Shown: positions 5,860-63,685 of the stretch, in pieces
Layout: each line of letters opens with the position of its first letter
How positions within the stretch are numbered: position 1 is the stretch's first letter
From: Shimia sp. R10_1
GTDB taxonomy: Bacteria; Pseudomonadota; Alphaproteobacteria; Rhodobacterales; Rhodobacteraceae
Assembly (NCBI RefSeq): GCF_017744095.1
Contig: NZ_JAGHQX010000007.1
Coordinates: 1-64,000 of the forward strand
DNA: 64,000 bases
Reading direction: 5' to 3'
The notes under the pieces: model-generated
The model's input: the letters and a program-made list of their open reading frames with translations, nothing else
Told to the model about the DNA's origin: nothing
Database searches by the model: none
Program-made: the position numbers and the translations under genes

Positions 5860-6840
5860 TTAACGCCAAGGGGTAAGTATGACTTTGGGCGCGGCCACTG
5901 TGCCTGCGTGCAGCTCTTCAAATGTGCGCACACCCGTTTCGAGCGTACGTTCTTCGAACCACTCCAAGGATCCCAGAGCTCCGGCAAAAAGTGCCTGTGC
6001 GGTGTCCTGAAAATCCTGGGAGGTATAGGTGTAAGTTCCAATAAAGGTCACTTCCTGAAGCGTCATGCGTCGAATGTCCAAACCGCCCAAGTCTTCGCCG
6101 AGGCCGATATGAGCGACCACGCCTCCGGGTTCAACGTGCGACGATGCCGCAGCGCGTGTGGCCGCGATACCGACAGCGTCGATGATGAGCGGCGCAGCGC
6201 GTTCCGGTTTCGGCAGGATCTGCGCGGCACAATGGTCGCTGAGGAACTTGGCGCGGGCTGAATTTGGCTCAACGATGTCGACCATTGGCAGCCCTTGGGC
6301 ACGCAGGCTGAGGTAGCTGGCAAGCCCAATGGCACCTCCTCCGATGACCAATGCGCGCGGTTCCATGGCTGGATGCAGGGCTTCAAGCCCCAATCGTGCA
6401 GCGTGCCATCCCACCGCCAGCGGCTCTGCCAAGGCAGCTTTGCTAAGCGGGACTGCATCCGGGACAGTGACCAGGTTTTCAGGAGGCAGCGCGACAAATT
6501 GTGCGAAGGCACCTTCGCGTGGTGGCATGGAAATGATCTGTCTTTGGGGGCAAAGGTTCTCGCGCCCGGAATGACAGGCCGCGCAATTTCGGCAAGTCAC
6601 CAGTGGGTTGAGTGTCACACGGCGGCCCTTCTCTGGGCCTTCTTCGACGATGCCTGCTGCCTCATGACCGAGGATCAAGGGGGCAGGGCGACGGCTGTCA
6701 TGACCCAAGAAGGCGTGCATGTCTGAGCCACAGATGCCAACGGCCTCCACCCGTATCAGTGTGTCGCGTTCCTGCATGGCGGGCATGGGGACGTCTTGAA
6801 AGCGAAGCGTTTTGGGGGCGTCGTAGATGAGGGCTTTCAT
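5860..6840 (-). CDS. hpsP: Zinc-dependent alcohol dehydrogenase, putative DHPS 2-dehydrogenase HpsP
   Basis: A 326-aa MDR-family dehydrogenase. Catalytic zinc ligands are in GICGSDMHAF and the GHEAAG motif; the structural zinc Cys cluster is CRNCAACHSGRENLC; the Rossmann glycine motif is VIGGGAIGLA. ATG 6840 overlaps the stop of the SDR gene in ATGA and the protein starts MKALIYDAPKT, typical for the family; the frame extends 22 codons upstream without support. In known DHPS clusters HpsO and HpsP interconvert DHPS enantiomers by oxidation and reduction at C2. The name rests on gene context, not on a diagnostic residue. Confidence 0.75.
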   Translation of the reverse strand: MKALIYDAPKTLRFQDVPMPAMQERDTLIRVEAVGICGSDMHAFLGHDSRRPAPLILGHEAAGIVEEGPEKGRRVTLNPLVTCRNCAACHSGRENLCPQRQIISMPPREGAFAQFVALPPENLVTVPDAVPLSKAALAEPLAVGWHAARLGLEALHPAMEPRALVIGGGAIGLASYLSLRAQGLPMVDIVEPNSARAKFLSDHCAAQILPKPERAAPLIIDAVGIAATRAAASSHVEPGGVVAHIGLGEDLGGLDIRRMTLQEVTFIGTYTYTSQDFQDTAQALFAGALGSLEWFEERTLETGVRTFEELHAGTVAAPKVILTPWR

Positions 6841-7598
6841 TTGGCGGTATATCCTCCGTCGACCATAAGGAGCTGACCTGTCACGTAGGCCGAGGCGTGA
6901 GAGCAAAGAAACAACAGGGGGCCGTCGATGTCTGTCATCTGTCCATTACGTCCAATGCAGGTTTGGGCGGCATTGCGAGCAGCGCGGTCTGGATCTTCAA
7001 AGACGGGTTGGGTGAGCTCTGTCGGAAAGAAGCCTGGGCCAATTGCGTTTACGTTGATGCCATCAGAGGACCACGCTTCTGCCATCGCGCGGGTCAGCTG
7101 TGCAATTCCGGCCTTTGTGGCTCCATAGGCAATTCCGCCCGGGAAGGCGCGCGTTGTTTGCAATGAGGCAAAATTGACAATCCGCCCCCATCCTTTGGAT
7201 TTCATGGCGGGCGCAAAGGCTTGGCTGACAAAGAAGGGCGCCGATAGATTTAGGGCGAGGGTCTTGTCCCAGCCGTCAGCGGTGACCTCATCTGCGGATT
7301 GCCGCGTGTTGATGCCTGCTGCATGGATGAGGATATCGGGTGTGCCGAAGGGCGCGGAGACCGCATTTCTGAGATTTGGCAGCCCTTCGCGGTTTGTCAC
7401 ATCAAACGCAACAAAAGCTGACTTTTCGCCAAGCTCTTCGGTCAGTGAGAGGAGTTCTGGTTTGCGACGGGCGACGGCAATGACATTTGCGCCAGCGGCA
7501 GCGAGGGCAAAGGCCGCGCGGCGTCCAAGGCCGGAACTGGCGCCCGTGACACAGGCCGTTTTGCCTGTCAGATCAAAAAGCGCACGGGGATCATCCAT
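6837..7598 (-). CDS. hpsO: Short-chain dehydrogenase/reductase, putative DHPS 2-dehydrogenase HpsO
   Basis: A classical SDR of 253 aa. It has the NAD(P)-binding motif TGASSGLGRRAA, the NAG-like motif HAAGIN, the catalytic Ser and Tyr-x3-Lys (YGATKAG), and the C-terminal VTGQLLMVDGG typical of FabG-like enzymes. ATG 7598 (MDDPRALFDLTGK) overlaps the end of the hpsN gene by 8 nt; the open frame extends 38 codons further but that part is low-complexity sequence inside hpsN. Between hpsN and the zinc dehydrogenase, it is best read as the second enzyme of the DHPS epimerising pair. A generic sugar or gluconate dehydrogenase would look similar. Confidence 0.72.
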   Translation of the reverse strand: MDDPRALFDLTGKTACVTGASSGLGRRAAFALAAAGANVIAVARRKPELLSLTEELGEKSAFVAFDVTNREGLPNLRNAVSAPFGTPDILIHAAGINTRQSADEVTADGWDKTLALNLSAPFFVSQAFAPAMKSKGWGRIVNFASLQTTRAFPGGIAYGATKAGIAQLTRAMAEAWSSDGINVNAIGPGFFPTELTQPVFEDPDRAARNAAQTCIGRNGQMTDIDGPLLFLCSHASAYVTGQLLMVDGGYTAK

Positions 7599-52620: not shown

Positions 52621-54210
52621 ATGATATTATCGCCTCTTAAGACCGTCCGAGCGTTTTCGGCGGTCGCAGCGGTTCTAACGACAGTTGCAACAGCCGTGTC
52701 GGCGCAAGACAAACCAAACATCCTGGTGATTTGGGGCGATGACATTGGCCAGTCCAACATCTCCGCCTACACCATGGGCATGATGGGCTATCGCACACCC
52801 AACATCGACCGTGTTGCAAACGAAGGTATGATCTTTACCGATTACTATGGTGAGCAGTCCTGTACCGCTGGCCGTGCGTCCTACATCATGGGGCAATCGG
52901 TGTTCCGCACCGGGCTTTCCAAAGTGGGCCTTCCGGGCGCTGAGCTTGGCATGCAAGAGGAAGATCCGACCATCGCAGGCATGCTGAAAGCGGAAGGCTA
53001 CGCGACCGGTCAGTTCGGCAAAAACCACCTTGGCGACAAGGATGAGCACCTGCCGACGAACCACGGTTTTGACGAATTCTTTGGCAACCTCTACCACCTG
53101 AATGCCGAAGAAGAGCCCGAAAACGTTGACTACCCAGGCGACACCGTGCTGCCTGATGGCCGCACTTTCCGCGAAGCGTTTGGCCCACGTGGTGTGATTA
53201 AGTCTTCTGCGGATGGCGAAATCGAAGACACCGGCCCGCTGACCAAAAAGCGTATGGAAACCGTAGATGAAGAAACGCTGGCGGCTGCCATCGACTTTAT
53301 CAAACGCGCCAATGATCAGGGCAAACCTTTCTACGTTTGGTGGAACGGTACACGCATGCACTTCCGTACTCACGTGCAGGAGACCATGCGCGAGAAAGCC
53401 AACCAGATCACTGGTAAGTCCCTGGATGAATACTCTGCCGGTATGATTGAGCACGACATGCATGTCGGCCAATTGCTTGACCTGCTGGACGAGCTGGGCA
53501 TCGCAGACAACACCATCGTTCACTATTCCACCGACAACGGCCCCCACTACAACACCTGGCCTGATGCGGCATCCACCCCTTTCTTTGGTGAGAAAAACAC
53601 CAATTACGAAGGTGGCTGGCGTGTGCCGTCCATGGTGCGTTGGCCTGGCAAAATCGAAGCAGGTTCTGTGAGCAACGAAATCGTGCACCACATGGATTGG
53701 TTCCCAACCCTTCTGGCGGCGGCTGGCCGTCCCGACATCAAGGAAGAACTGAAAGCTGGGGGTGTTCAGGCGATTGGTCGTGAGTACAAGGTGCACCTGG
53801 ATGGCTACAACATCCTGCCAATGCTGACCGGTGAGACGACTGAAAGCCCGCGTAACGAGATCTTCTACTTCTCTGACGATGGCGACCTGACCGCGCTGCG
53901 TTATCAGGACTGGAAGTTCATCTTTATGGAGCAGAAAGAGTACAAAACGCTGCGCGCATGGATCGAACCGTTCACCGTGCTGCGTCTGCCTCTGATCATG
54001 AACCTGCGTCGCGACCCATATGAGCGTGCCTATCAGACTTCCAACACCTACTATGACTGGCTGCTGGATCGTGCGTACTTCCTCGTGCCTGCGCAGCAGT
54101 ATGTGGGGCAGTTCCTGGCCACATTCCAGGAATTCCCGCCACGTCAGAAAGCGGCAAGCTTCAGCCTGGATCAGGTGATGGAAAAAATGTCTTCGCCAAT
54201 TGGTGACTGA
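52621..54210 (+). CDS. Secreted Cys-type sulfatase (arylsulfatase family)
   Basis: 529 aa. The signal peptide ends at ATAVSA before QDKPN. Metal ligands are the DD in VIWGDDIGQ (Asp40-41) and the DN in STDNGPH; the formylglycine motif is SCTAGRASYIMG, with Cys81 as the residue to be oxidised (CxAxR); the helper Lys/His are in GKNHLGD. It would cleave sulfate esters in the periplasm or outside. A formylglycine-generating enzyme is required for this type but none is encoded in the window. It is the first gene of the MoxR-VWA-cytochrome cluster. The substrate (aryl, polysaccharide or lipid sulfate) is unknown; a phosphonate-ester hydrolase is a less likely alternative. Confidence 0.93.
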   Translation: MILSPLKTVRAFSAVAAVLTTVATAVSAQDKPNILVIWGDDIGQSNISAYTMGMMGYRTPNIDRVANEGMIFTDYYGEQSCTAGRASYIMGQSVFRTGLSKVGLPGAELGMQEEDPTIAGMLKAEGYATGQFGKNHLGDKDEHLPTNHGFDEFFGNLYHLNAEEEPENVDYPGDTVLPDGRTFREAFGPRGVIKSSADGEIEDTGPLTKKRMETVDEETLAAAIDFIKRANDQGKPFYVWWNGTRMHFRTHVQETMREKANQITGKSLDEYSAGMIEHDMHVGQLLDLLDELGIADNTIVHYSTDNGPHYNTWPDAASTPFFGEKNTNYEGGWRVPSMVRWPGKIEAGSVSNEIVHHMDWFPTLLAAAGRPDIKEELKAGGVQAIGREYKVHLDGYNILPMLTGETTESPRNEIFYFSDDGDLTALRYQDWKFIFMEQKEYKTLRAWIEPFTVLRLPLIMNLRRDPYERAYQTSNTYYDWLLDRAYFLVPAQQYVGQFLATFQEFPPRQKAASFSLDQVMEKMSSPIGD

Positions 54211-54238
54211 TCCTGAGCTGATCTGAGTTTGACAAAAT

Positions 54239-54262
54239 GCCATCCCGCGATTGCGGGGTGGC
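54239..54262 (+). other. Hairpin between sulfatase and HAD genes
   Basis: GCCATCCCGC, GATT loop, GCGGGGTGGC: ten pairs including one G-U, followed by a T-rich tract. It lies 28 nt after the sulfatase stop and 40 nt before the HAD start. It could be a partial terminator that lets the sulfatase be made in excess of the genes that follow. Confidence 0.6.
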
Positions 54263-54302
54263 ACCAAGATTTTCACTATTTTTTCTTTGGAGTGATTGGG
54301 TG

Positions 54303-55298
54303 ATGCGAAAGCTTGCGCATATGGCCGCCTTTGTTGTGAGTGGCGTTGGAGTAACCTCTGGAATGGCGCTGGCAGATCCTTTGCCCTCGTGGAACGATAC
54401 TGACGCAAAAGCGCGGATCATTTCCTTTGTTGAGGCTGTGACCGATCCTGCCTCTGAAGACTATGTGACCCCGGCAGATCGCATTGCGACCTTTGACAAT
54501 GATGGCACGCTTTGGGCCGAACAGCCGGTGTATTTCCAATTGATTTTTGCGGTCGATCAGGTTGCCAAATTGGCGGAGCAGGATCCGTCGATTTTGACCA
54601 GCGACGCGCTGCGTGCAGCGGCGGCAGGCGACTATGAGGCGCTGGCAGCGACTGGCAAAGAAGGTCTGATTGAGGTGCTTGCGGCCTCTCATACCGAAGT
54701 GTCACTCTACCAGTTCCAACAGGATGTTACGGCTTGGTTGGAGGAGGCGCGTCACCCCAAAACTGGCCTGCGCTATGATGAGATGACCTATCAGCCGATG
54801 CTGGAGCTTTTGCGCTATCTGCGGGATGAAGGGTTTGCGACCTATATCGTTTCCGGCGGCGGTATTCAGTTTATGCGGGTCTTTGCGGAGGATGCCTATG
54901 GCATTCCCCCCAATCAGGTGATCGGCAGCTCTATCACGTCGACTTATGAAGTTGTGGATGGCGTGCCGGTGATCATGAAGGGCGCGGAGCTGTTCTTCAA
55001 CGATGATAAAGCGGGCAAGCCGATCGGGATCATGCACCATATTGGCAAACAGCCGATTTTGGCAGGCGGCAACTCTGATGGTGATTTTGAGATGCTGGAG
55101 TTTTCGACCTCTGGTGAGGGCGCGCGTCTGGGTCTGTATGTGCATCACACAGATGCAGAGCGTGAATGGGCCTATGATCGTGAAGGGCATATCGGCGTCT
55201 TGAACCGTGGACTGGACGAAGGCCCGGATCGCGGCTGGCTGATTGTGGACATGGCACAGGACTGGTCCAAAGTTTTTGCGAAAACCAAAGCTGAGTGA
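54303..55298 (+). CDS. Exported HAD-superfamily phosphatase
   Basis: 331 aa with a signal peptide (cleavage after GMALA, before DPLPSW). HAD motif I is ATFDNDGTLW (Asp65 nucleophile, Asp67), motif II is YIVSGGG, and the acidic motif is GNSDGDFEML. The cap between motifs I and II is helical, as in phosphoserine-phosphatase-like enzymes. It would remove phosphate from a small substrate in the periplasm. GGAG lies upstream of ATG 54303; the frame opens 22 codons earlier in the hairpin region. It ends 8 nt before moxR. Confidence 0.88.
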   Translation: MRKLAHMAAFVVSGVGVTSGMALADPLPSWNDTDAKARIISFVEAVTDPASEDYVTPADRIATFDNDGTLWAEQPVYFQLIFAVDQVAKLAEQDPSILTSDALRAAAAGDYEALAATGKEGLIEVLAASHTEVSLYQFQQDVTAWLEEARHPKTGLRYDEMTYQPMLELLRYLRDEGFATYIVSGGGIQFMRVFAEDAYGIPPNQVIGSSITSTYEVVDGVPVIMKGAELFFNDDKAGKPIGIMHHIGKQPILAGGNSDGDFEMLEFSTSGEGARLGLYVHHTDAEREWAYDREGHIGVLNRGLDEGPDRGWLIVDMAQDWSKVFAKTKAE

Positions 55299-55306
55299 GC
55301 AGGACA

Positions 55307-56296
55307 ATGACGCCAAGAGAGCAGATTGAGCGCCTTGCGGCCCAGATGGGCGAAAGCATCATTGGTCAGCGTGATGTGATCGACCGGTTGTTGATTGGCC
55401 TTTTGGCAAACGGCAACCTGTTGCTGGAAGGCCTGCCGGGGCTTGCAAAAACGCGCGCGGTGAAAGCCTTGGCGAAGAACCTGGAGTGTGACTATGCACG
55501 CATCCAGTTCACACCAGACCTGTTGCCGGCGGATGTGACCGGCACGGAGATGTATTTCCAAAGCGAAGGCGGCGGCCAATTCAAATTCCAGCCGGGTCCG
55601 ATTTTTGCCAATCTGGTGCTGGCGGATGAGATCAACCGGGCGCCTGCAAAAGTGCAGGCGGCCTTGCTTGAGGCGATGGAAGAACGACAGGTGACAGTTG
55701 CGGGGACAACCCACAAGATGGCACCGCTGTTTATGGTTCTGGCGACGCAAAACCCGGTGGAGCAGGAAGGCACCTATCCGCTGCCTGAGGCGCAGATGGA
55801 CCGGTTTCTGATGCATGTGCGGATTGACTATCCCCCGCTTGAGGATGAGGTGAAGGTGATCCGGCTGGTGCGCGCCGAAGAGCAGGCGGCGCTGGCTGAT
55901 ACCCAGTCTGAAAAGACATCCAATGCGGATGCACCGATGTCGCAAGAGGTGGTTTTTGCAGCGCGTCGCGAGATTGCGACGCTGCATTGTGCCGAGGCGA
56001 TGGAAACCTATATGGCGACCATCGTGCAGGCCACACGGACGCCGGCAGACTTTGATGGCGACCTTGCCAAATGGATCGACATCGGCGCGAGCCCGCGTGC
56101 GTCGCTGGCGCTTGATCGGTGCGCGCGGGTGCATGCATGGCTGGCCGGGCGCGATTATGTCGACCCGGAAGATGTGCGCGCGATTGCACCTGACGTGCTA
56201 CGCCACCGTTTGGCGCTGAGCTATGAAGCGCAAGGCAGCGGTGTCTCTGCTGATCAGGTGAGCGCGCGCGTTTTGTCTGTGGTGGCTTTGCCATGA
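55307..56296 (+). CDS. MoxR-family AAA+ ATPase
   Basis: 329 aa. The MoxR-type Walker A is LLLEGLPGLAKTRAVKAL, Walker B is LVLADEINRAPAKVQAALLEAMEERQV, sensor 1 is VLATQNPVEQEGTYPLPEAQMDRF. MoxR proteins act with VWA-domain partners as chaperones in assembly or metal-cofactor insertion. ATG 55307 has AGGA upstream; GTG 55295 overlapping the previous stop is an alternative. It is followed by DUF58 and VWA genes, the classic MoxR arrangement. Confidence 0.94.
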   Translation: MTPREQIERLAAQMGESIIGQRDVIDRLLIGLLANGNLLLEGLPGLAKTRAVKALAKNLECDYARIQFTPDLLPADVTGTEMYFQSEGGGQFKFQPGPIFANLVLADEINRAPAKVQAALLEAMEERQVTVAGTTHKMAPLFMVLATQNPVEQEGTYPLPEAQMDRFLMHVRIDYPPLEDEVKVIRLVRAEEQAALADTQSEKTSNADAPMSQEVVFAARREIATLHCAEAMETYMATIVQATRTPADFDGDLAKWIDIGASPRASLALDRCARVHAWLAGRDYVDPEDVRAIAPDVLRHRLALSYEAQGSGVSADQVSARVLSVVALP

Positions 56297-56312
56297 GCTG
56301 GGACGTCTGACC

Positions 56313-57296
56313 ATGAGCCGCCGCGCCAGCATATCGCGCATGGGGCTATCAGCGGCCAGTGTTGAGGCGACGGATGACTGGGATTTGCGGGTGCATGTGA
56401 CGCTGCCGCATTTGCAGAGTTTTCGGGCCGCCGCACGGGCCATATCTTTCTTGCCGCACCAGCCTGCACGCTCTGCGTTGCAGGGCAGACACCGTGCGCG
56501 GATACGCGGGCGGGGTCTCGATTTTGAAGAGCTGCGCAACTATTTGCCCGGTGATGATGTGCGGGCGATCGACTGGAAAGTCACCGCGCGATCCGGCGCG
56601 CCTTATGTGCGGGTCTATAACGAGGAGCGCGACCGACCGACTCTGATCGTGGTGGATCAGCGCATGTCGATGTTCTTTGGCACGGTGCAAAACACCAAAT
56701 CGGTCACTGCGGCTGAAACAGCGGCGATTGTGGCGCATCGCGTGATTGATCAGGGCGACCGGCTGGGCGGTATTGTTTTTGGCGATCAGGCGGTTGAAGA
56801 GTTGCGCCCCGGACGTGGCGCAACGGCATTGACCCGCTTCTTGAGTGTTTTGACACAGGCCAATCAGCGGCTGCATGCGGATGCTGCCAAAGTGAAACCG
56901 ATGGCGATGAATGCGGTGCTGCGCGCGGTGTCTCGGTTGGCCACGCGGGATCATTTGGTGATCGTGATCAGCGATTTTGACGCGGCAGATGCGGAAACAG
57001 AGCGCCATATGGGCGCGATTGCGCAGCACAATGATGTTGTGTTGGCTTTGGTGACAGACCCCACCGCTGAGAGTTTGCCAGAACAGGGCGCGGTGACGGG
57101 AACGGACGGTCAGCAGCAGGCGCGGCTTGATATGGCGGCAGAGGGCGTGCGGGCAGGGGTTTTGTCTGTGGCTGCGGATCGTACAGACCTCGTGATGGGT
57201 TGGCAGAAGAAGATGAAACTGTCCGTTCTGCCACTGACCACTGCACAGGACACGCTGCCGCAGATTGTGGCCCTGATGGGAGGCGCGCGGCGATGA
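56313..57296 (+). CDS. DUF58 domain protein
   Basis: 327 aa, soluble. The DUF58 core is RARIRGRGLDFEELRNYLPGDDVRAIDWKVTARSGAPYVRVYNEERD, followed by a VWA-like half with VVDQRMSMFFGT, where DxSxS is replaced by DQRMS, a form I recall in many proteobacterial DUF58 proteins. It regularly pairs with MoxR. Its stop overlaps the DUF4381 start in ATGA. Confidence 0.9.
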   Translation: MSRRASISRMGLSAASVEATDDWDLRVHVTLPHLQSFRAAARAISFLPHQPARSALQGRHRARIRGRGLDFEELRNYLPGDDVRAIDWKVTARSGAPYVRVYNEERDRPTLIVVDQRMSMFFGTVQNTKSVTAAETAAIVAHRVIDQGDRLGGIVFGDQAVEELRPGRGATALTRFLSVLTQANQRLHADAAKVKPMAMNAVLRAVSRLATRDHLVIVISDFDAADAETERHMGAIAQHNDVVLALVTDPTAESLPEQGAVTGTDGQQQARLDMAAEGVRAGVLSVAADRTDLVMGWQKKMKLSVLPLTTAQDTLPQIVALMGGARR

Positions 57297-57823
57297 GTGA
57301 GACCGCAGCTGAGACCCCAACCGAGACCTCTGAGGCGCAGGCCGACAGTCTTGTCGGGCTGATCAATCAGCTGGCAGAGGTGCCAGAGCCTGAGGCGGTT
57401 TCGATGATGCCGCAAACGGTGGGATGGGCCGTATTGGCTGGGATGCTCTTACTGGTGCTGATGGCGTGGGTCTGGCGCATCTGGAAGCGCTATCAGGCCA
57501 ATGCCTACCGCCGCGAGGCGCTCGTTGCCCTGGAACAGGTTTCTGAAGATGCGGCAGCGATTTCGGCGCTTTTGAAACGCACTGCGTTGACCGCTTATGG
57601 CCGCAGCCGTGTGGCCGCGCTCAGCGGTGAGCGCTGGCTGGCGTTTCTGGACGCAACGATAGGGACCAGCGAACCGGCGTTTTCAAACGGGGCGGGGCAT
57701 GTGCTGGCGCAGGCGGCTTATCGGCCGGAGCCGGTGCCTGCAGGGCCGGACTTGCAGGATTTGGCGCGGTGGTGGATCAAACACCACCCGAGTGCCTCCG
57801 ATCTGGAGGGGCGCGATGTTTGA
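57293..57823 (+). CDS. DUF4381 membrane protein
   Basis: 176 aa. One central transmembrane helix (about residues 42-62, GWAVLAGMLLLVLMAWVWRIW) is preceded by an acidic periplasmic-side segment and followed by a cytoplasmic helical part (YRREALVALEQVSEDAAAISALLKRTALTAYGRSRVAALSG). DUF4381 is a recurrent accessory of Bat-type operons with unknown function. The start ATG 57293 overlaps the DUF58 stop by 4 nt, and its end overlaps the next start by 8 nt. Confidence 0.85.
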   Translation: MSETAAETPTETSEAQADSLVGLINQLAEVPEPEAVSMMPQTVGWAVLAGMLLLVLMAWVWRIWKRYQANAYRREALVALEQVSEDAAAISALLKRTALTAYGRSRVAALSGERWLAFLDATIGTSEPAFSNGAGHVLAQAAYRPEPVPAGPDLQDLARWWIKHHPSASDLEGRDV

Positions 57824-58799
57824 GCTGACCCATCCATTTGTACTGTTGTTGTGGCCGCTACCGGTTTTGGTGCGTTGGCTGCTGCCTGCCTATCATCAGC
57901 GCGAATCTGCTGTGCGTTTGCCCTTCTTTGAAGCATTGGCAGAGGCGGCGGGCGTTTCGCTGCGCGAGGGGGCAATGGTGGTGGCGCACAAACGTTGGGC
58001 GCTGGTGGCGGGCTTTGTGATCTGGAGCCTTGTGGTGGCGGCGTTGAGTGGGCCGATGCGGCTGGGACCGCCGCAGGAGATCACCAAGGCAACACGCGAT
58101 GTGATCCTTGCGATCGATATTTCCGGCTCCATGGACACTGTCGATTTTCCGGGGGCTGATGGCGACGCGCAACAAAGGTTTGCCGCGGTGCAGGATGTGG
58201 TTGGCGCCTTTTTGCAGGGCCGCGAGGGCGACCGGGTGGCGTTGATTGTGTTTGGCTCGCGCGCTTATGTGCAGGCGCCACTGACCGAGGATCTCGCAAC
58301 TGTTGGGGCCATGCTTGGCCAAACAGAGGTGGGTATGGCTGGGCCGCATACTGCGCTTGGGGATGCGATTGGTTTGGCGATCCGCACCTTTGAAGCCAGC
58401 GAAATCGACGAGCGTCTGTTGATTTTACTGTCTGACGGCAATGACACCGCGAGCCGGATGAGCCCTGTGAATGCGGCTGAGATTGCCAAGGACAACGGCG
58501 TGACCATGTTTGCAGTTGGCGTCGGGGACCCTGAGGCCAGCGGTGAAGATCAGCTGGATATGGGGCAGCTTTCTGATCTGGCAGAGCGCACGGGCGGGCA
58601 GGCGTTTTTTGCCGCTGATGCGGAAGCGCTCGATCAGATCTACGCGGAGATTGACAGTCTGACACCCCGCGAAGAAGACAGCATCAGCTGGCGACAGAAA
58701 GAGCCGTTGGGGCACTACTTGTTGCTTGCGGCGGTCTTTGTCGGGCTGATCCTGTTGTTTTCGGCAGCGATGCGCATGCCACGGAGGGACGCGGCATGA
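57816..58799 (+). CDS. batA: BatA-like membrane VWA protein with intact MIDAS
   Basis: 327 aa. Two N-terminal transmembrane helices (about 5-22 and 52-72), a von Willebrand A domain, and a C-terminal helix (about 298-320). The metal-ion-dependent adhesion site is complete: LAIDISGSMDTVD (DxSxS), with a Thr in TALGDA and the DG of LSDGNDT. In Bacteroides Bat proteins this domain faces the periplasm and binds partners in a Mg-dependent way. GGAGGGGCGCG precedes ATG 57816. Coupled to the next gene by 4 nt overlap. Confidence 0.9.
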   Translation: MFELTHPFVLLLWPLPVLVRWLLPAYHQRESAVRLPFFEALAEAAGVSLREGAMVVAHKRWALVAGFVIWSLVVAALSGPMRLGPPQEITKATRDVILAIDISGSMDTVDFPGADGDAQQRFAAVQDVVGAFLQGREGDRVALIVFGSRAYVQAPLTEDLATVGAMLGQTEVGMAGPHTALGDAIGLAIRTFEASEIDERLLILLSDGNDTASRMSPVNAAEIAKDNGVTMFAVGVGDPEASGEDQLDMGQLSDLAERTGGQAFFAADAEALDQIYAEIDSLTPREEDSISWRQKEPLGHYLLLAAVFVGLILLFSAAMRMPRRDAA

Positions 58800-60394
58800 G
58801 CGAGTCTGTGTTCTGGGTCTATGTTGAGGCGTTCCACTTTTTGCGTATCTGGGTGTTTGCTGCGGCTGTGCCTGTGCTTTGGATCTGGTGGCAGATGCGG
58901 CGCAGGCAGGGCGCGCAGGCCAGTGAGACGGATTGGATCGCACCGCATTTGGTGCAGGCGTTGACCGTGCCGGGGACCGCCCGCAAAGGTGTGCAGCCGA
59001 TTGACGTGATTGCGCTGGTGATGCTCTTGTTGATTGCCGCCGCCGCAGGGCCAAGCTGGACACGTGCGCCTGCGCCGTTTGCGGCACAAACCGCGCCTTT
59101 GGTGATCGCGTTGCAGGTGTCGCCCTCGATGGAGGCCACCGATGTGGCCCCGGATCGGCTGGAACGCGCAAAGCAGAAGGCGCGGGATTTGCTGGAGTTG
59201 CGTGCAGGCGCACGTACGGCGCTTGTGGCCTTTGGCGGCAGTGCGCATGTTGTGGTGCCGATGAGCGAAGATCCCAGCGTGATGCAGCCGTATCTGGAGG
59301 GGTTGCGGCCTGATGTGATGCCCATTGAAGGGCAGGATGTGGGCGCAGGCTTTGATGTGGCGCGCACCCTGCTGGCGCGGGAGGCCGCTGCCGGTGGCGT
59401 GGTCTTTTTGCTCGATGATTTGTCTGCGGCAGATGCGACCGCTCTGGAAACCGCATGGCGCGATGGTGGTGCGGCGGAGGGCGCAGAGGAGGATGAAGAG
59501 GCGGCGATTGCGCAGGCCTCTGTTGCCTCGATGAGCTTTCTCTATTTGTTGCCGGATGGCAGTGCGCTTCCTGCAGGACCGGAGGGCAGCTTTTCGCAAG
59601 CGGTCACGGCTGATGGGCGCGATGTAGCTGCGATTGAGCGCTCTTTGGCCTCAGCCTATCAGCGTGCGCAGTTGAGTGACGCAGCGCAGCCTTGGGAAGA
59701 TCGCGGCGCATGGTTTGCCTGGCCCGCAGCACTGTTGCTGCTCATTTGGTTCCGGCGTGGCATGGCTGTGCGTTGGGCGGCACAATTGGCCGTGGCGCTC
59801 TGGTTTGTGCTGCCTGCAACCGAAGCACAGGCCGAAGGCTGGCGTGACTGGTTTTTGACTGCAGATCAGCAGGGCTGGATCGCCTATCAGCGCAAGGACT
59901 ACGAAACGGCGGCCGCGCGGTTTGAAGACCCTTATTTGCGCGGTGTCGCGCTTTATCGTGATGGGCAATATGAAACGGCGGCGCAGGAAATGGCGCGAAT
60001 TGAAACGGCGGATGCTGCCTTTATCGAAGGCATGTCGCAGTTGAAATCACGTGGCTATCGGGATGGGGTGCGCGCCTTTGAGAGGGCGTTGGCGATTGAT
60101 CCCAACCACGCTGGTGCGCAGCAAAACCTGCCCATCGCCAAAGACATTGTGACCTATGTGGAGACCACACGCGCGCAATCAGACACTGGCGAAGAGTCGG
60201 GTATCGGCGCCGATGACACGGTGTTTGACAATGAAAGCGGGCAGGGCGCGGAGACCCAGATAGAAGCCTCTGAGGAAGAGGCCGCTGGCGGTCATCTGTC
60301 TGCCGAACAATGGATGCGCACCGTAGACACGCGCACCGAAGACTTTTTGCGACAGCGGTTTCGTTTGGAAGCCGCTCAGCCAACTGGAGATTAA
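58796..60394 (+). CDS. batB: BatB/BatC-like membrane VWA-TPR protein with degenerate MIDAS
   Basis: 532 aa. Two N-terminal helices (about 14-32 and 66-82), a VWA domain, a third helix region around 300-345, then TPR repeats (GWIAYQRKDYETAAARFEDP, GVALYRDGQYETAAQEMARI, RDGVRAFERALAIDPNHAGAQQNL) and an acidic Gln/Glu-rich tail. The MIDAS reads ALQVSPSMEATD, so the first Asp of DxSxS is Gln. It appears to join BatB and BatC functions in one chain. Metal-dependent binding by this VWA domain is doubtful. It starts in a 4-nt overlap with the batA-like gene. Confidence 0.88.
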   Translation: MSESVFWVYVEAFHFLRIWVFAAAVPVLWIWWQMRRRQGAQASETDWIAPHLVQALTVPGTARKGVQPIDVIALVMLLLIAAAAGPSWTRAPAPFAAQTAPLVIALQVSPSMEATDVAPDRLERAKQKARDLLELRAGARTALVAFGGSAHVVVPMSEDPSVMQPYLEGLRPDVMPIEGQDVGAGFDVARTLLAREAAAGGVVFLLDDLSAADATALETAWRDGGAAEGAEEDEEAAIAQASVASMSFLYLLPDGSALPAGPEGSFSQAVTADGRDVAAIERSLASAYQRAQLSDAAQPWEDRGAWFAWPAALLLLIWFRRGMAVRWAAQLAVALWFVLPATEAQAEGWRDWFLTADQQGWIAYQRKDYETAAARFEDPYLRGVALYRDGQYETAAQEMARIETADAAFIEGMSQLKSRGYRDGVRAFERALAIDPNHAGAQQNLPIAKDIVTYVETTRAQSDTGEESGIGADDTVFDNESGQGAETQIEASEEEAAGGHLSAEQWMRTVDTRTEDFLRQRFRLEAAQPTGD

Positions 60395-60399
60395 GGCAC

Positions 60400-61680
60400 G
60401 TGCGGTTTGTTTTGAACGTTTTGAGTGTTTGGCTGATATGGGCAGGGCTTGCACTGGCACAGGATGCGCCAAAACTGGACGTGGTCTTTGAGGAGACGGA
60501 AACGATACCGGGGCAGCCCCTCACGCTGAGGTTAACAGTTTTGGTGCCGACCTTCATGCCGGAGCCACCGGTTTGGCCCGATCTGGAAAGCCCCAATCTG
60601 ATGGTGCGTTTGCCAGAAAAAGCAAGCTCGCCAACGAGCAAGTCTGTGAACGGTGAGACATGGTCAGGGATTTCGCGGCGCTATCAGATCACACCGATGG
60701 TGCCGGGCAGTTTTGTGATTGCGCCGGGCGTTGTGCGGGTGACCTATCAGGGCGATGCCGGCGGCGTACAGCAGGCGGAATTGCCCGTACCGGAGATTTC
60801 CGTGGTTGGCGTGCTGCCGGAAGGGGCCGAAGGGCTTGATCCCTTCCTTGCTGCGCAGTCGCTGACTTTGTCGCAAAATATCGAAGGGGAAGCGGAGGGC
60901 CTTGCGGCAGGTGGGAGCCTGACCCGCGTTGTGCAGGCCGAGATCAAAGGTGTTTCCCCGTTGTTCATACCACCGCTTACGCCGGAACAGGCGCCAGATG
61001 GTTTGCGTGCCTATCCTGAAAGCCCTGTCGTTGAAGAGAAAGACGATCGTGGGATCCTTTCGGGCACGCGCTCTGAAAAGACTGTTTATGTTGCGGAAGC
61101 TGCCGTTGATGGCGCGCTGCCAGCGATGACGTTGAAGTGGTACAATTTGAAGACCAAGAGCGTGGAGGAGACGACTTTGCCGGAGGTGGCTGTCCATGCG
61201 GACGCGCCTGCAGCCGGAGGGCTGTTGCCCGGTGCTGACACGCGGTCAGGTTTGGATCTGCGGCTGATTGGTGTTGGGGCGGTGCTCCTGCTTGGGCTGC
61301 TGGGCGCTTGGAGCGTACGCGGGCGGATACTGCGCGGCCTTTGGCGGTTGCAAAGCCAGTGGCGCGCCAGTGAAATATATGCATGGCGCGCAGTAAAAGA
61401 CTCTGTGCGCCGCCATGATTTGAGCGGATCACGCACGGCGTTTTCTGTTTGGCGAGACCGTATGAATGGATACGCGGTGCCCCAGGAGGATGCGGTTGAA
61501 GACGCATTTCTGGCGCTTGGCAGCGGGTTGTTTGGCACGCAGACTGCAGCAGACCAACCTGCGCACTGGCGTGAGCTAAATGCGGCGTTGAAAGACCTGC
61601 GGCGCGCGTTGCATAAGGGACGTCGTGTGAGACACCTAGCTTTGGCAGCACTCAATCCGGTGTCTGCAGCCAGGAAATAA
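60400..61680 (+). CDS. batD: BatD-like membrane-anchored protein
   Basis: 426 aa. A signal peptide (start VRFVLNVLSVWLIWAGLALA, cleavage before QDAPK) is followed by beta-rich periplasmic domains (about 25-290), a transmembrane helix (about 292-312, LIGVGAVLLLGLLGAW) and a cytoplasmic helical tail rich in Arg and Trp. This is the BatD layout. The start is GTG 60400, 5 nt after the previous stop; no ATG fits the signal peptide. It is followed 10 nt later by the octahaem cytochrome gene. Confidence 0.82.
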   Translation: MRFVLNVLSVWLIWAGLALAQDAPKLDVVFEETETIPGQPLTLRLTVLVPTFMPEPPVWPDLESPNLMVRLPEKASSPTSKSVNGETWSGISRRYQITPMVPGSFVIAPGVVRVTYQGDAGGVQQAELPVPEISVVGVLPEGAEGLDPFLAAQSLTLSQNIEGEAEGLAAGGSLTRVVQAEIKGVSPLFIPPLTPEQAPDGLRAYPESPVVEEKDDRGILSGTRSEKTVYVAEAAVDGALPAMTLKWYNLKTKSVEETTLPEVAVHADAPAAGGLLPGADTRSGLDLRLIGVGAVLLLGLLGAWSVRGRILRGLWRLQSQWRASEIYAWRAVKDSVRRHDLSGSRTAFSVWRDRMNGYAVPQEDAVEDAFLALGSGLFGTQTAADQPAHWRELNAALKDLRRALHKGRRVRHLALAALNPVSAARK

Positions 61681-61690
61681 AGGGAGCGAC

Positions 61691-63685
61691 ATGGCCCATT
61701 TTTTGCAGGCGTTTCTCGCCTTGCGCACGCCTGCGGGTGCGATATTCGGCTTTGTTGCTCTTGTGTCTCTGGCACTGGCAACGGGAGCAGCGGCGCAGAC
61801 TGCCAATGCCTCCGAACAGGCAGACGCCGCATATGCACCCGCCTATGTTGGGTCAGAGACCTGTGTTTCTTGTCACGAAGGAGAGACTGATGCTTGGCGG
61901 GCCTCTCACCATGCCCAAGCCTGGCGCATGCCCAGCGACGCGGTGCTGATCGGAGCCTTTCAAGGGGAAGTCTTTGAACATGATGGGATGTGGGCGCAGT
62001 TTGACACCCTAGAGGGTGCGCGCACGGTTACAGTGCGCGAAAAAGACGGTGTGGAGACGGTTTACACACTGCACTCTGTGGGGGGGACGTTCCCCCTGCA
62101 GCATCTGATTTTGGAAACGGGGCTTGGCCGTCTGCAAAGTTTCGATGTGGTTTGGGATGTGCAGGAAAAGCGGTGGTTCCACCTCTATCCTGAGCAGGAT
62201 TTGCCGCCGCAAGATGCCTATCACTGGTCTGGGGCTTACAAGAACTGGAACGCGCGCTGTGCGGAGTGTCATGCCACGGGTTTTGAGAAAAACTATGATT
62301 TTCAGCGCAAGCGCTATGCCTCAACACAGGTGGAAATCGGTGTGGGCTGTGAAGCCTGTCACGGGCCGGGGCAGGCACATCTGGATTTGGTCGCAGGTCA
62401 GCCTGAGGTGCATTATCAAGTTGCTTTGACCGACTGGGGATTTTCAGCGGATATGTCTGAGCCGCAGGCGGCCATGGAGCAATGTGCAGGGTGCCATGCG
62501 CGCCGGGAAGCTTTTGGTGACGGCAATCCGTTGCCCGGAACGGCATTTGCCGATGCTTATAATTTGGCGATGCTGCGCCCCGGCCAGTATCATGCCGACG
62601 GGCAGATCCTGGATGAGGTTTATGTCTATGGCTCTTTCCTGCAATCCAAAATGCATCAGCAGGGCGTGACGTGCGCAAATTGCCATACCCCACATAGCGC
62701 AGAGTTGCTGGCGGAGGGGGATGCGATCTGTACGCAGTGCCATTCAGAAGCGGGGAACCCGGATTTTCCAACCTTGAACCTGACGGACTACCAATCGCCT
62801 GCGCACACCCATCACGCGGAGGGCAGCGAAGGGGCGCAATGTGTAAACTGCCACATGACGGATCAGGTCTACATGGGCAATGATTGGCGTCGAGATCACA
62901 ATTTCCGTGTCCCAAGGCCGGATGTGTCCGCGCGGCTGGATACGCCGGATGCCTGCACGCGCTGTCATAGCGATCAATCTGCGGAGTGGGCCGCCGATCA
63001 GGTGGCAGGCTGGTTCCCAAATGGGCGCTGGACCGAGCCCCACTATGGCGATGTCTTGGCGCGTGGCCGGGCCAACCCGCAGGCCGCAGCTGCGGATTTG
63101 CTGGCGTTGGCGCAGGATGACAGTCAGGCTGATCTGGTGCGGGCCAGTGCACTGTGGCTGCTGGGGCCAGGTGCGACCAGCTTGAACCTGCAGGAAATCG
63201 GTGCCTTTTTGGAAGACGAAGACCCACAGGTGCGTGTTGGCGCGCTTCAAGCGCTCAGATCGCGCGCGGCGGTGGCGGCGGCGCCTTACTTGATAAAGGG
63301 ATTGCAAGATGATGTGCGGGCGGTGCGGATCGCGGCGGCACGTGCCATCATGAGCCAGCCCGCACATCGCTTGCCAGAGAGTTTGCGTGGCTACATGCGC
63401 CAAGCGTTTCAGACTTTTGGCGGCATGGTGCGCAATCAAATGGATTTTGCAGAGGCGCATTTGCAGATGGCAGGCTATGCGATGGTTGCTGGCGACACGC
63501 GATCCGCGGCGGGTGCATTGACGGAAGCGGTGCGCATTAATCCGCAAAACGTGCAAGCCTGGGCGACTTTGGTGCGGCTGACCGCAGAGCTGCGCGGGCG
63601 CGCTGCGGCCAAAGACACGCTTGAGCGGGCTTTGGCGCTCAATCCCGGTGACCTGACCTTGCTGTCTTTGGAGCGCCAATTCTGA
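61691..63685 (+). CDS. Secreted eight-haem c-type cytochrome with HEAT/TPR-like C-terminal repeats
   Basis: 664 aa. The signal peptide ends about residue 36 (GAAA before QTANA). Eight CxxCH sites start at Cys58, 190, 220, 265, 328, 347, 384 and 422 (CVSCH, CAECH, CEACH, CAGCH, CANCH, CTQCH, CVNCH, CTRCH), like the c554/doubled-CxxCH group. Residues about 460-560 form HEAT-like helical repeats and about 590-660 TPR-like repeats ending at LLSLERQF. Haem is attached in the periplasm. GGGAG precedes ATG 61691. It is the last gene of the MoxR-VWA operon; its electron partners are not known. Confidence 0.9.
   Translation: MAHFLQAFLALRTPAGAIFGFVALVSLALATGAAAQTANASEQADAAYAPAYVGSETCVSCHEGETDAWRASHHAQAWRMPSDAVLIGAFQGEVFEHDGMWAQFDTLEGARTVTVREKDGVETVYTLHSVGGTFPLQHLILETGLGRLQSFDVVWDVQEKRWFHLYPEQDLPPQDAYHWSGAYKNWNARCAECHATGFEKNYDFQRKRYASTQVEIGVGCEACHGPGQAHLDLVAGQPEVHYQVALTDWGFSADMSEPQAAMEQCAGCHARREAFGDGNPLPGTAFADAYNLAMLRPGQYHADGQILDEVYVYGSFLQSKMHQQGVTCANCHTPHSAELLAEGDAICTQCHSEAGNPDFPTLNLTDYQSPAHTHHAEGSEGAQCVNCHMTDQVYMGNDWRRDHNFRVPRPDVSARLDTPDACTRCHSDQSAEWAADQVAGWFPNGRWTEPHYGDVLARGRANPQAAAADLLALAQDDSQADLVRASALWLLGPGATSLNLQEIGAFLEDEDPQVRVGALQALRSRAAVAAAPYLIKGLQDDVRAVRIAAARAIMSQPAHRLPESLRGYMRQAFQTFGGMVRNQMDFAEAHLQMAGYAMVAGDTRSAAGALTEAVRINPQNVQAWATLVRLTAELRGRAAAKDTLERALALNPGDLTLLSLERQF

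Follow-up and report, generated by a model that had tools for sequence, protein, structure and literature searches.

An operon of nine genes in Shimia sp. R10_1 that may encode sulfatase activation by way of an octahaem cytochrome c

At positions 52621-63685 of a stretch of Shimia sp. R10_1 DNA (the window, 64 kb out of a 271,585-base contig in a 4.37-Mb genome), nine genes encode a secreted sulfatase, a secreted HAD-family hydrolase, a MoxR/Bat module (MoxR AAA_3, DUF58, VWA proteins and BatD within one operon) and a secreted octahaem cytochrome c. The locus raises the question of what such a cytochrome does beside a sulfatase. We observed linkage of the two genes, exchange of the cytochrome for a known sulfatase activator, complementarity of these activators across genomes, a matching pattern of Ser and Cys at the sulfatase active site, and loss of the haem domain in two loci. 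On balance, the nine genes probably form a self-contained sulfatase-activation operon, one of three forms, in which the cytochrome would be the formylglycine generator or its oxidant and the Bat proteins would act as a dedicated sulfatase chaperone. A more specific version, put forward tentatively as somewhat short of probable, would make the cytochrome itself a periplasmic formylglycine-generating enzyme for exported Cys-type sulfatases, a third class besides FGE (the oxygen-dependent, SUMF1-type formylglycine-generating enzyme, PF03781) and anSME (the radical SAM maturase, TIGR03942), that works by haem chemistry, passes electrons to respiration and is served by Bat. The parts of the operon are as follows.

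52621..54210, plus strand: secreted Cys-type sulfatase (PF00884), with SCTAGR at residues 80-85 and the C81 codon at 52861-52863
54211..54302, plus strand: intergenic gap with an 11-bp hairpin, from a folding calculation
54303..55298, plus strand: secreted HAD-family hydrolase (PF12710), by Pfam match and a solved relative (4ovy)
55295..56296, plus strand: MoxR AAA+ ATPase, by Pfam AAA_3 (PF07726), AAA_lid_2 and the MoxR tree
56313..57296, plus strand: DUF58 (VWA-like) protein, by Pfam match
57293..57823, plus strand: DUF4381 protein, by Pfam match
57816..58799, plus strand: BatA-like VWA protein, by Pfam VWA and other profile matches
58796..60394, plus strand: BatB-like VWA plus TPR protein, by Pfam VWA_2 and a weak TPR match
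60400..61680, plus strand: BatD family protein, by several relatives that match PF13584 (P0151 and others) or are named BatD
61691..63685, plus strand: secreted octahaem cytochrome c, candidate sulfatase activator, by Pfam multihaem and HEAT/TPR matches and 8 CxxCH motifs

All nine reading frames are open and stand in the order given by the initial annotation of this DNA, which had also placed the gaps correctly: 92 nucleotides between the sulfatase and HAD genes, 8 between HAD and MoxR, and subsequently 16, -4, -8, -4, 5 and 10. The HAD-MoxR spacing depends on the start chosen for MoxR (ATG at 55307 gives 8 nucleotides, GTG at 55295 gives -4). The hairpin that had been described in the 92-nucleotide gap is present. 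Eight of the protein families that it had named were recovered by Pfam; no Pfam model scored the BatD protein of the window, whose assignment is backed by relatives. The initial annotation had left as a check whether the hydrolase and cytochrome genes are kept beside Bat genes in relatives, and they are, recurring together across Pseudomonadota both in and outside the class of the window.

A scan of named genomes yielded 14 loci holding the cytochrome. All nine genes occur in the same order and on the same strand in eight of these (L008-L012, L014, L015, L018), and in L013 and L016 only the phosphatase differs, the HAD slot being occupied by a PF01663 alkaline-phosphatase-like gene (split in two in L013). 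Contig ends truncate L017 and L019; in L020 the Bat block is present, with sulfatase and cytochrome on opposite strands, and L021 has the cytochrome alone out of the nine genes. The cytochrome is present in 20 of 24 genomes of the window's genus. Six plasmid regions were examined out of 146 records with a match. The full set is carried by a plasmid of Alloyangia pacifica, and an arylsulfatase-HAD-cytochrome group by plasmids of Rhodobacteraceae SC52, Roseibium aggregatum, Rhizobium leguminosarum (pRL11) and Sinorhizobium meliloti (pSymA). The gene tables of these four plasmids, which are incomplete, list no Bat gene in the surrounding ~9 kb. A Qingshengfaniella plasmid has the cytochrome without sulfatase, HAD or Bat. 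Among the papers listed by searches of an open-access library, and in the available portions of PMC6189696, PMC3920027, PMC7159879 and PMC11500405, we recognised no description of this operon.

Profile searches of 398 Pseudomonadota genomes, in which only the best three first-look candidates per genome were scored, found the cytochrome in 35 (E <= 1e-40), the sulfatase subfamily in 47 (E <= 1e-100) and DUF4381 in 170. The cytochrome lies at most 15 kb from a sulfatase of the subfamily in 19 of the 35 cytochrome-bearing genomes and at most 3 kb from one in 14; by chance, a genome that encodes two sulfatases of this kind would show the 15-kb linkage with a probability of ~1.4%. Cytochrome-sulfatase linkage thus exceeds chance.

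For comparison of gene neighborhoods, we fetched stretches around cytochrome and sulfatase matches and annotated them with profiles built for this analysis (123 loci). The combination of Bat genes and sulfatase, in most cases joined by HAD, is found again in distant Pseudomonadota, where the ninth gene is swapped: of 40 Bat-plus-sulfatase loci, 24 have the octahaem cytochrome, 6 have FGE, 5 have anSME and 5 have none of these within the fetched stretch. The FGE operons (L186, L191, L228, L231, L238, L240; HAD in five of the six) and the anSME operons (L214, L226, L230, L232, L244; HAD in three of the five) lack the cytochrome, and in L226, L232 and L244 the genes for sulfatase, anSME, MoxR, DUF58, DUF4381, VWA, VWA-TPR, BatD and HAD form one contiguous run. 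At two further loci, anSME stands beside the sulfatase without Bat. None of the 123 annotated loci holds two of FGE, anSME and cytochrome. Among the five loci with no activator in the stretch, L209 has the cytochrome ~11 kb from the sulfatase, just beyond the stretch, L248 has anSME just beyond it, the L200 genome has FGE elsewhere, and the L210 and L219 genomes have the cytochrome elsewhere, with a best PF03781 match that lacks the FGE motif and no anSME above cut-off.

The type of activator switches at least 12 times on a quick tree of 99 sulfatases (59 typed rows, some sharing a locus; built without L009-L012, L014, L017, L091, L092, L249-L251 and sulfatases of <400 residues or without S(C/S)TAGR), and the exchange has therefore occurred repeatedly. 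Three of the FGE-type operons, L228 (10813-13389), L231 (10754-13393) and L238 (10685-13279), contain an extra gene for a protein of 858-879 residues, the L228 copy with a spermidine-synthase domain.

The window sulfatase has the sequence features of an S1 sulfatase, namely a PF00884 match (E 1.5e-48) and the (C/S)-X-(P/A)-X-R motif that defines this class in the available portion of PMC6189696; its SCTAGR motif is invariant in 19 aligned sequences including its own. According to the available portion of PMC3920027, anSME accepts Ser or Cys and FGE acts on Cys. Across all annotated loci, sulfatases linked to anSME carry SSTAGR in five of seven cases and SCTAGR in two, and those linked to FGE carry SCTAGR in 18 of 19. 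In the remaining one, a 645-residue sulfatase-family protein (L194, 10805-12742), no (C/S)-X-(P/A)-X-R motif was found. Cytochrome-linked sulfatases have SCTAGR (41 of 44) or CSPTR (two), with one fragment lacking the motif, and those with no activator linked have SCTAGR (41/41). Ser-type sulfatases among the annotated loci thus stand only beside anSME. The cytochrome also adjoins other Cys-type (CSPTR) sulfatases of ~560-880 residues (L098, L111, L115-L118; PF00884 confirmed for L111, L115 and L117). Given that its partners are of the Cys type and that the Ser/Cys pattern matches the specificities of anSME and FGE, these sequences suggest a thiol requirement of the cytochrome. The window's genome also encodes another secreted SCTAGR sulfatase (G000:C2:42333-43823, L182), and none of the operon's partner genes was found within ~9 kb of it.

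The same pattern bears on the idea that the sulfatase works with an unmodified Cys, the cytochrome keeping the thiol reduced or reversing its over-oxidation in the periplasm. Slow turnover by unmodified choline sulfatase, described in the available portion of PMC6189696, speaks for this idea. We nevertheless regard it as improbable, given that closely related sulfatases within this operon frame pair Ser with anSME or Cys with FGE, a combination that points to formylglycine chemistry in this sulfatase family.

Complementarity was also examined at the level of whole genomes, with FGE called from PF03781 plus a paired-Cys motif in the best PF03781 match per genome and anSME called at the curated TIGR03942 cut-off; several genomes hold weaker matches to both families. 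The motif, which we take to be GGSxLC...C..YR, was present in 8 fetched PF03781 proteins and in further ones. Among the 47 of 398 Pseudomonadota genomes that carry the sulfatase, the cytochrome is missing from 19, every one of which has FGE or anSME, and the 28 with it comprise 4 with FGE, 7 with anSME and 17 with neither (Fisher p 8e-6, without correction for relatedness; the table omits one row, a second piece in G074). The 17 include G275, which is 87% complete, and the window's own genome, in which neither a PF03781 candidate nor a TIGR03942 match turned up. Of 35 genomes drawn from the window's genus and family, all 22 that have the cytochrome also have the sulfatase subfamily, which is in none of the 13 others, G032 with its marginal cytochrome match (E 5e-4) being placed among the 13. 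The cytochrome thus swaps with FGE or anSME in operons that otherwise match, and its distribution over genomes is complementary to theirs, with exceptions weighed below.

The window cytochrome has exactly eight CxxCH motifs, between residues 58 and 426, a beta-rich insert at ~93-164 and a HEAT/TPR domain at ~430-664, and eight motifs were likewise found in the cytochromes of all 59 annotated loci holding one. In 60 aligned cytochromes, the eight CxxCH are invariant together with only six other His residues (74, 230, 335, 372, 375, 403) and with Met 321, 389 and 395. Since eight motifs face six other invariant His residues, two haems may lack a distal His ligand, which would leave room for Met-ligated or open haems. 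Pfam and NCBIfam matches of the cytochrome included no PF03781 domain, no radical-SAM/SPASM domain or TIGR03942, and no CCP_MauG domain. In its predicted structure (mean pLDDT 67.9), confidence is limited to the HEAT/TPR half and a portion of the beta insert. The sole fold match at E <= 0.001 was OcwA (6i5b; E 2.8e-6, 15% identity, with a low-confidence model), and MccA matched weakly by sequence (E 5e-6) over one short stretch. We therefore did not assign the protein to a known octahaem enzyme (HAO, MccA, OTR/ONR), given that the sequence matches were short and the OcwA fold match fell on the low-confidence haem region.

Two anSME operons of genus g152 (L214 and L230) encode a secreted protein of 343-364 residues without CxxCH. 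At E 1e-4 in the whole set of open reading frames, the matches of this protein were limited to its counterpart and to the C-terminal halves of the cytochromes (E down to 4e-35). Where anSME is present in these loci, the haem half is therefore absent and the HEAT/TPR half kept. Between the anSME gene and that for the haem-free protein, L214 also encodes a 195-residue protein (6782-7369) with a signal-peptide-like start and no Pfam match.

These results can be set against an explanation on the product side, in which the sulfatase and phosphatase would release an alcohol or sugar, the cytochrome would accept the electrons from its oxidation, and the alternation with FGE and anSME would reflect lineage and habitat. 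A secreted multihaem protein would suit such a role, and some copies lie away from sulfatases: that of L097 is beside what we take to be a GMC-type oxidoreductase and a small cytochrome, and that of Qingshengfaniella (L304) is beside genes for a Gfo/Idh/MocA oxidoreductase and a sugar-phosphate isomerase. A family that is presumably of the short-chain-dehydrogenase type recurs in 6 of 54 clustered loci; it is, however, absent from the other 48. The explanation also does not account for the known activator in 19 of 19 cytochrome-free genomes, for the Ser/Cys pattern or for the haem-free homologue beside anSME, and we consider it unlikely.

In sulfatase activation as we propose it, the sulfatase would be exported by Sec and then activated in the periplasm. 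A haem whose site is open or exchangeable would take two electrons from Cys81, the resulting thioaldehyde would hydrolyse to formylglycine, and the electrons would travel through the chain of haems into the respiratory pool. Docking of the sulfatase or the Bat proteins may fall to the HEAT/TPR half. By analogy with NorQ/NorD, MoxR and the VWA, DUF58 and BatD proteins may constitute a dedicated AAA+ chaperone that presents or folds the sulfatase. The same data also fit a weaker form of the proposal, in which some generator not yet seen would depend on the cytochrome as its electron acceptor.

Six genomes were chosen for having a second DUF4381 locus, and in all six the MoxR linked to the sulfatase and the MoxR of the other locus are distinct paralogues, which fits a dedicated role for Bat. 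On a MoxR tree (built without L009-L012 and L014), the MoxRs of the other Bat loci group in a single supported clade, with the sulfatase-linked MoxRs from these genomes falling outside it, and the sulfatase-linked Bat module is therefore a separate paralogue; the second MoxR of the window's genome is still more distant. The initial annotation had proposed that MoxR/Bat matures or inserts the co-encoded exported proteins, perhaps linking sulfate-ester use to periplasmic redox chemistry. We weighed this as a reading in which the module would mature hydrolases and cytochrome alike and the cytochrome would be an ordinary electron carrier coupling sulfate-ester use to respiration. The tight operon and the separate paralogue agree with a dedicated maturation role, and the proposal is to that extent supported. 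The constant partner of Bat is, however, the sulfatase and not the cytochrome: 11 loci with FGE or anSME have Bat linked to cytochrome-free sulfatase operons, and 15 loci, as well as plasmids, have cytochrome-sulfatase pairs without Bat in the stretch. The cytochrome accordingly looks like an exchangeable activator of the sulfatase rather than a protein served by Bat or one that ties sulfate-ester use to respiration, and we give the earlier proposal as a whole a low probability. Two other roles for Bat were considered and set aside, that of a cytochrome maturation machine, as the main reading, given its linkage to FGE and anSME sulfatases without the cytochrome, and that of a formylglycine generator, given its co-occurrence with FGE and anSME at the same loci.

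Several observations weigh against sulfatase activation by the cytochrome. FGE or anSME accompanies the cytochrome in 11 of the 28 genomes that hold it. In five g152 genomes (G124, G239, G309, G389, G409), anSME lies ~10-20 kb from the cytochrome, beyond the stretches compared, and exclusion is therefore local, holding only within ~9 kb. Sixteen of 59 cytochrome loci fall below both the sulfatase and the Bat thresholds; a CSPTR sulfatase adjoins the cytochrome in four of these (L098, L111, L115, L116) and contig ends cut two (L017, L099), leaving ten with no sulfatase or Bat in the stretch (L021, L094, L095, L097, L101, L104, L105, L109, L119, L120). The haem-free homologue was found in only two of seven anSME loci and not in the other five, and the haem domain of the cytochrome model is poor. 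The counts are biased in that loci were picked around the cytochrome or the sulfatase, and the limit of three scored candidates per genome also weighs here. Cys-type members without a known activator exist in any case: one choline-sulfatase-like protein with CAPGR is encoded in each of G006 and G022, two genomes of the window's genus that lack the cytochrome, FGE and above-cut-off anSME, and four further Cys-type members of PF00884 in the window's genome lack the SCTAGR form. G020, also of this genus and without the cytochrome, likewise holds one CAPGR choline-sulfatase-like protein, FGE and anSME not having been searched there. A strict rule, by which a genome without FGE, anSME and cytochrome has no Cys-type PF00884 protein, failed on the CAPGR proteins. 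Given the slow activity of unmodified choline sulfatase, such proteins need not disprove the activator idea, although they show that the lack of a known activator is not confined to this operon.

The phosphatase slot is a second exchangeable position, with phosphatase-like chemistry predicted from the families that fill it: among the 123 loci, HAD occurs in 38, PF01663 (PafA-like, alkaline-phosphatase-like) in 7 (L013, L016, L019, L082, L092, L099, L245), and both in none. The strong 11-bp hairpin at 54211-54302, between the sulfatase and HAD genes, is perhaps a processing or attenuation site; the fold of 54208-54302 has an energy of -30.5 kcal/mol (z -2.57). A promoter and terminator scan gave no clear excess over shuffled sequences (6 promoter-like sites versus 3.8, with a standard deviation of 2.2; 13 terminator-like sites versus 12.8). 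The operon is flanked upstream by rlmJ and by what we take to be a minus-strand mre cluster and downstream by what are presumably MrpA-type antiporter genes. The window cytochrome and BatD are 98% and 96% identical, respectively, to proteins named Shimia sp. MMG029.

If the proposal is correct, protein-modifying enzymes would include a new kind in the form of a multihaem cytochrome, with uses in the production of active sulfatases and of aldehyde-tagged proteins, and the widespread, poorly understood MoxR/Bat modules would gain a defined client. With 17 of 47 sulfatase-bearing genomes lacking FGE and anSME, the cytochrome is a named, clonable candidate that makes this gap directly testable.

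Two formylglycine-generating systems are described in the available portion of PMC3920027. FGE resembles the window system in standing beside the same sulfatase and Bat genes in six loci and in acting on Cys (PMC3920027, available portion); unlike FGE, the window gene encodes an octahaem cytochrome without an FGE domain, and the window's genome has no PF03781 match. Like the cytochrome, anSME (AtsB) fills the exchangeable slot, in five Bat loci; the window cytochrome differs in having no radical-SAM domain, and five of seven anSME-linked sulfatases are of the Ser type. A third maturation system was reportedly inferred from E. coli deletion mutants by Benjdia in 2007. It resembles the window in concerning a Cys-type sulfatase without a known activator, and differs in that it is known from deletion mutants; the cytochrome was not searched for in E. 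coli. MauG, a dihaem enzyme that builds a protein-derived cofactor, is a precedent for a c-type multihaem protein oxidising a residue of another protein, although the window cytochrome has no MauG/CCP domain. OcwA, which is grouped with the multihaem enzymes NrfA, HAO and MccA, gave the one fold match at the threshold used. The OcwA described in the available portion of PMC6703420 contains two open haems and shows enzyme-like reactions with nitrite and hydroxylamine; its 9 haems and three-helix bundle contrast with the 8 haems and HEAT/TPR half of the window cytochrome. Finally, the MoxR/VWA and Bat modules related to NorQ/NorD (PMC9976466, available portion) share with the window MoxR, DUF58, DUF4381, two VWA proteins and BatD in conserved order, whereas the Bat module of the window is a separate paralogue linked to a sulfatase.

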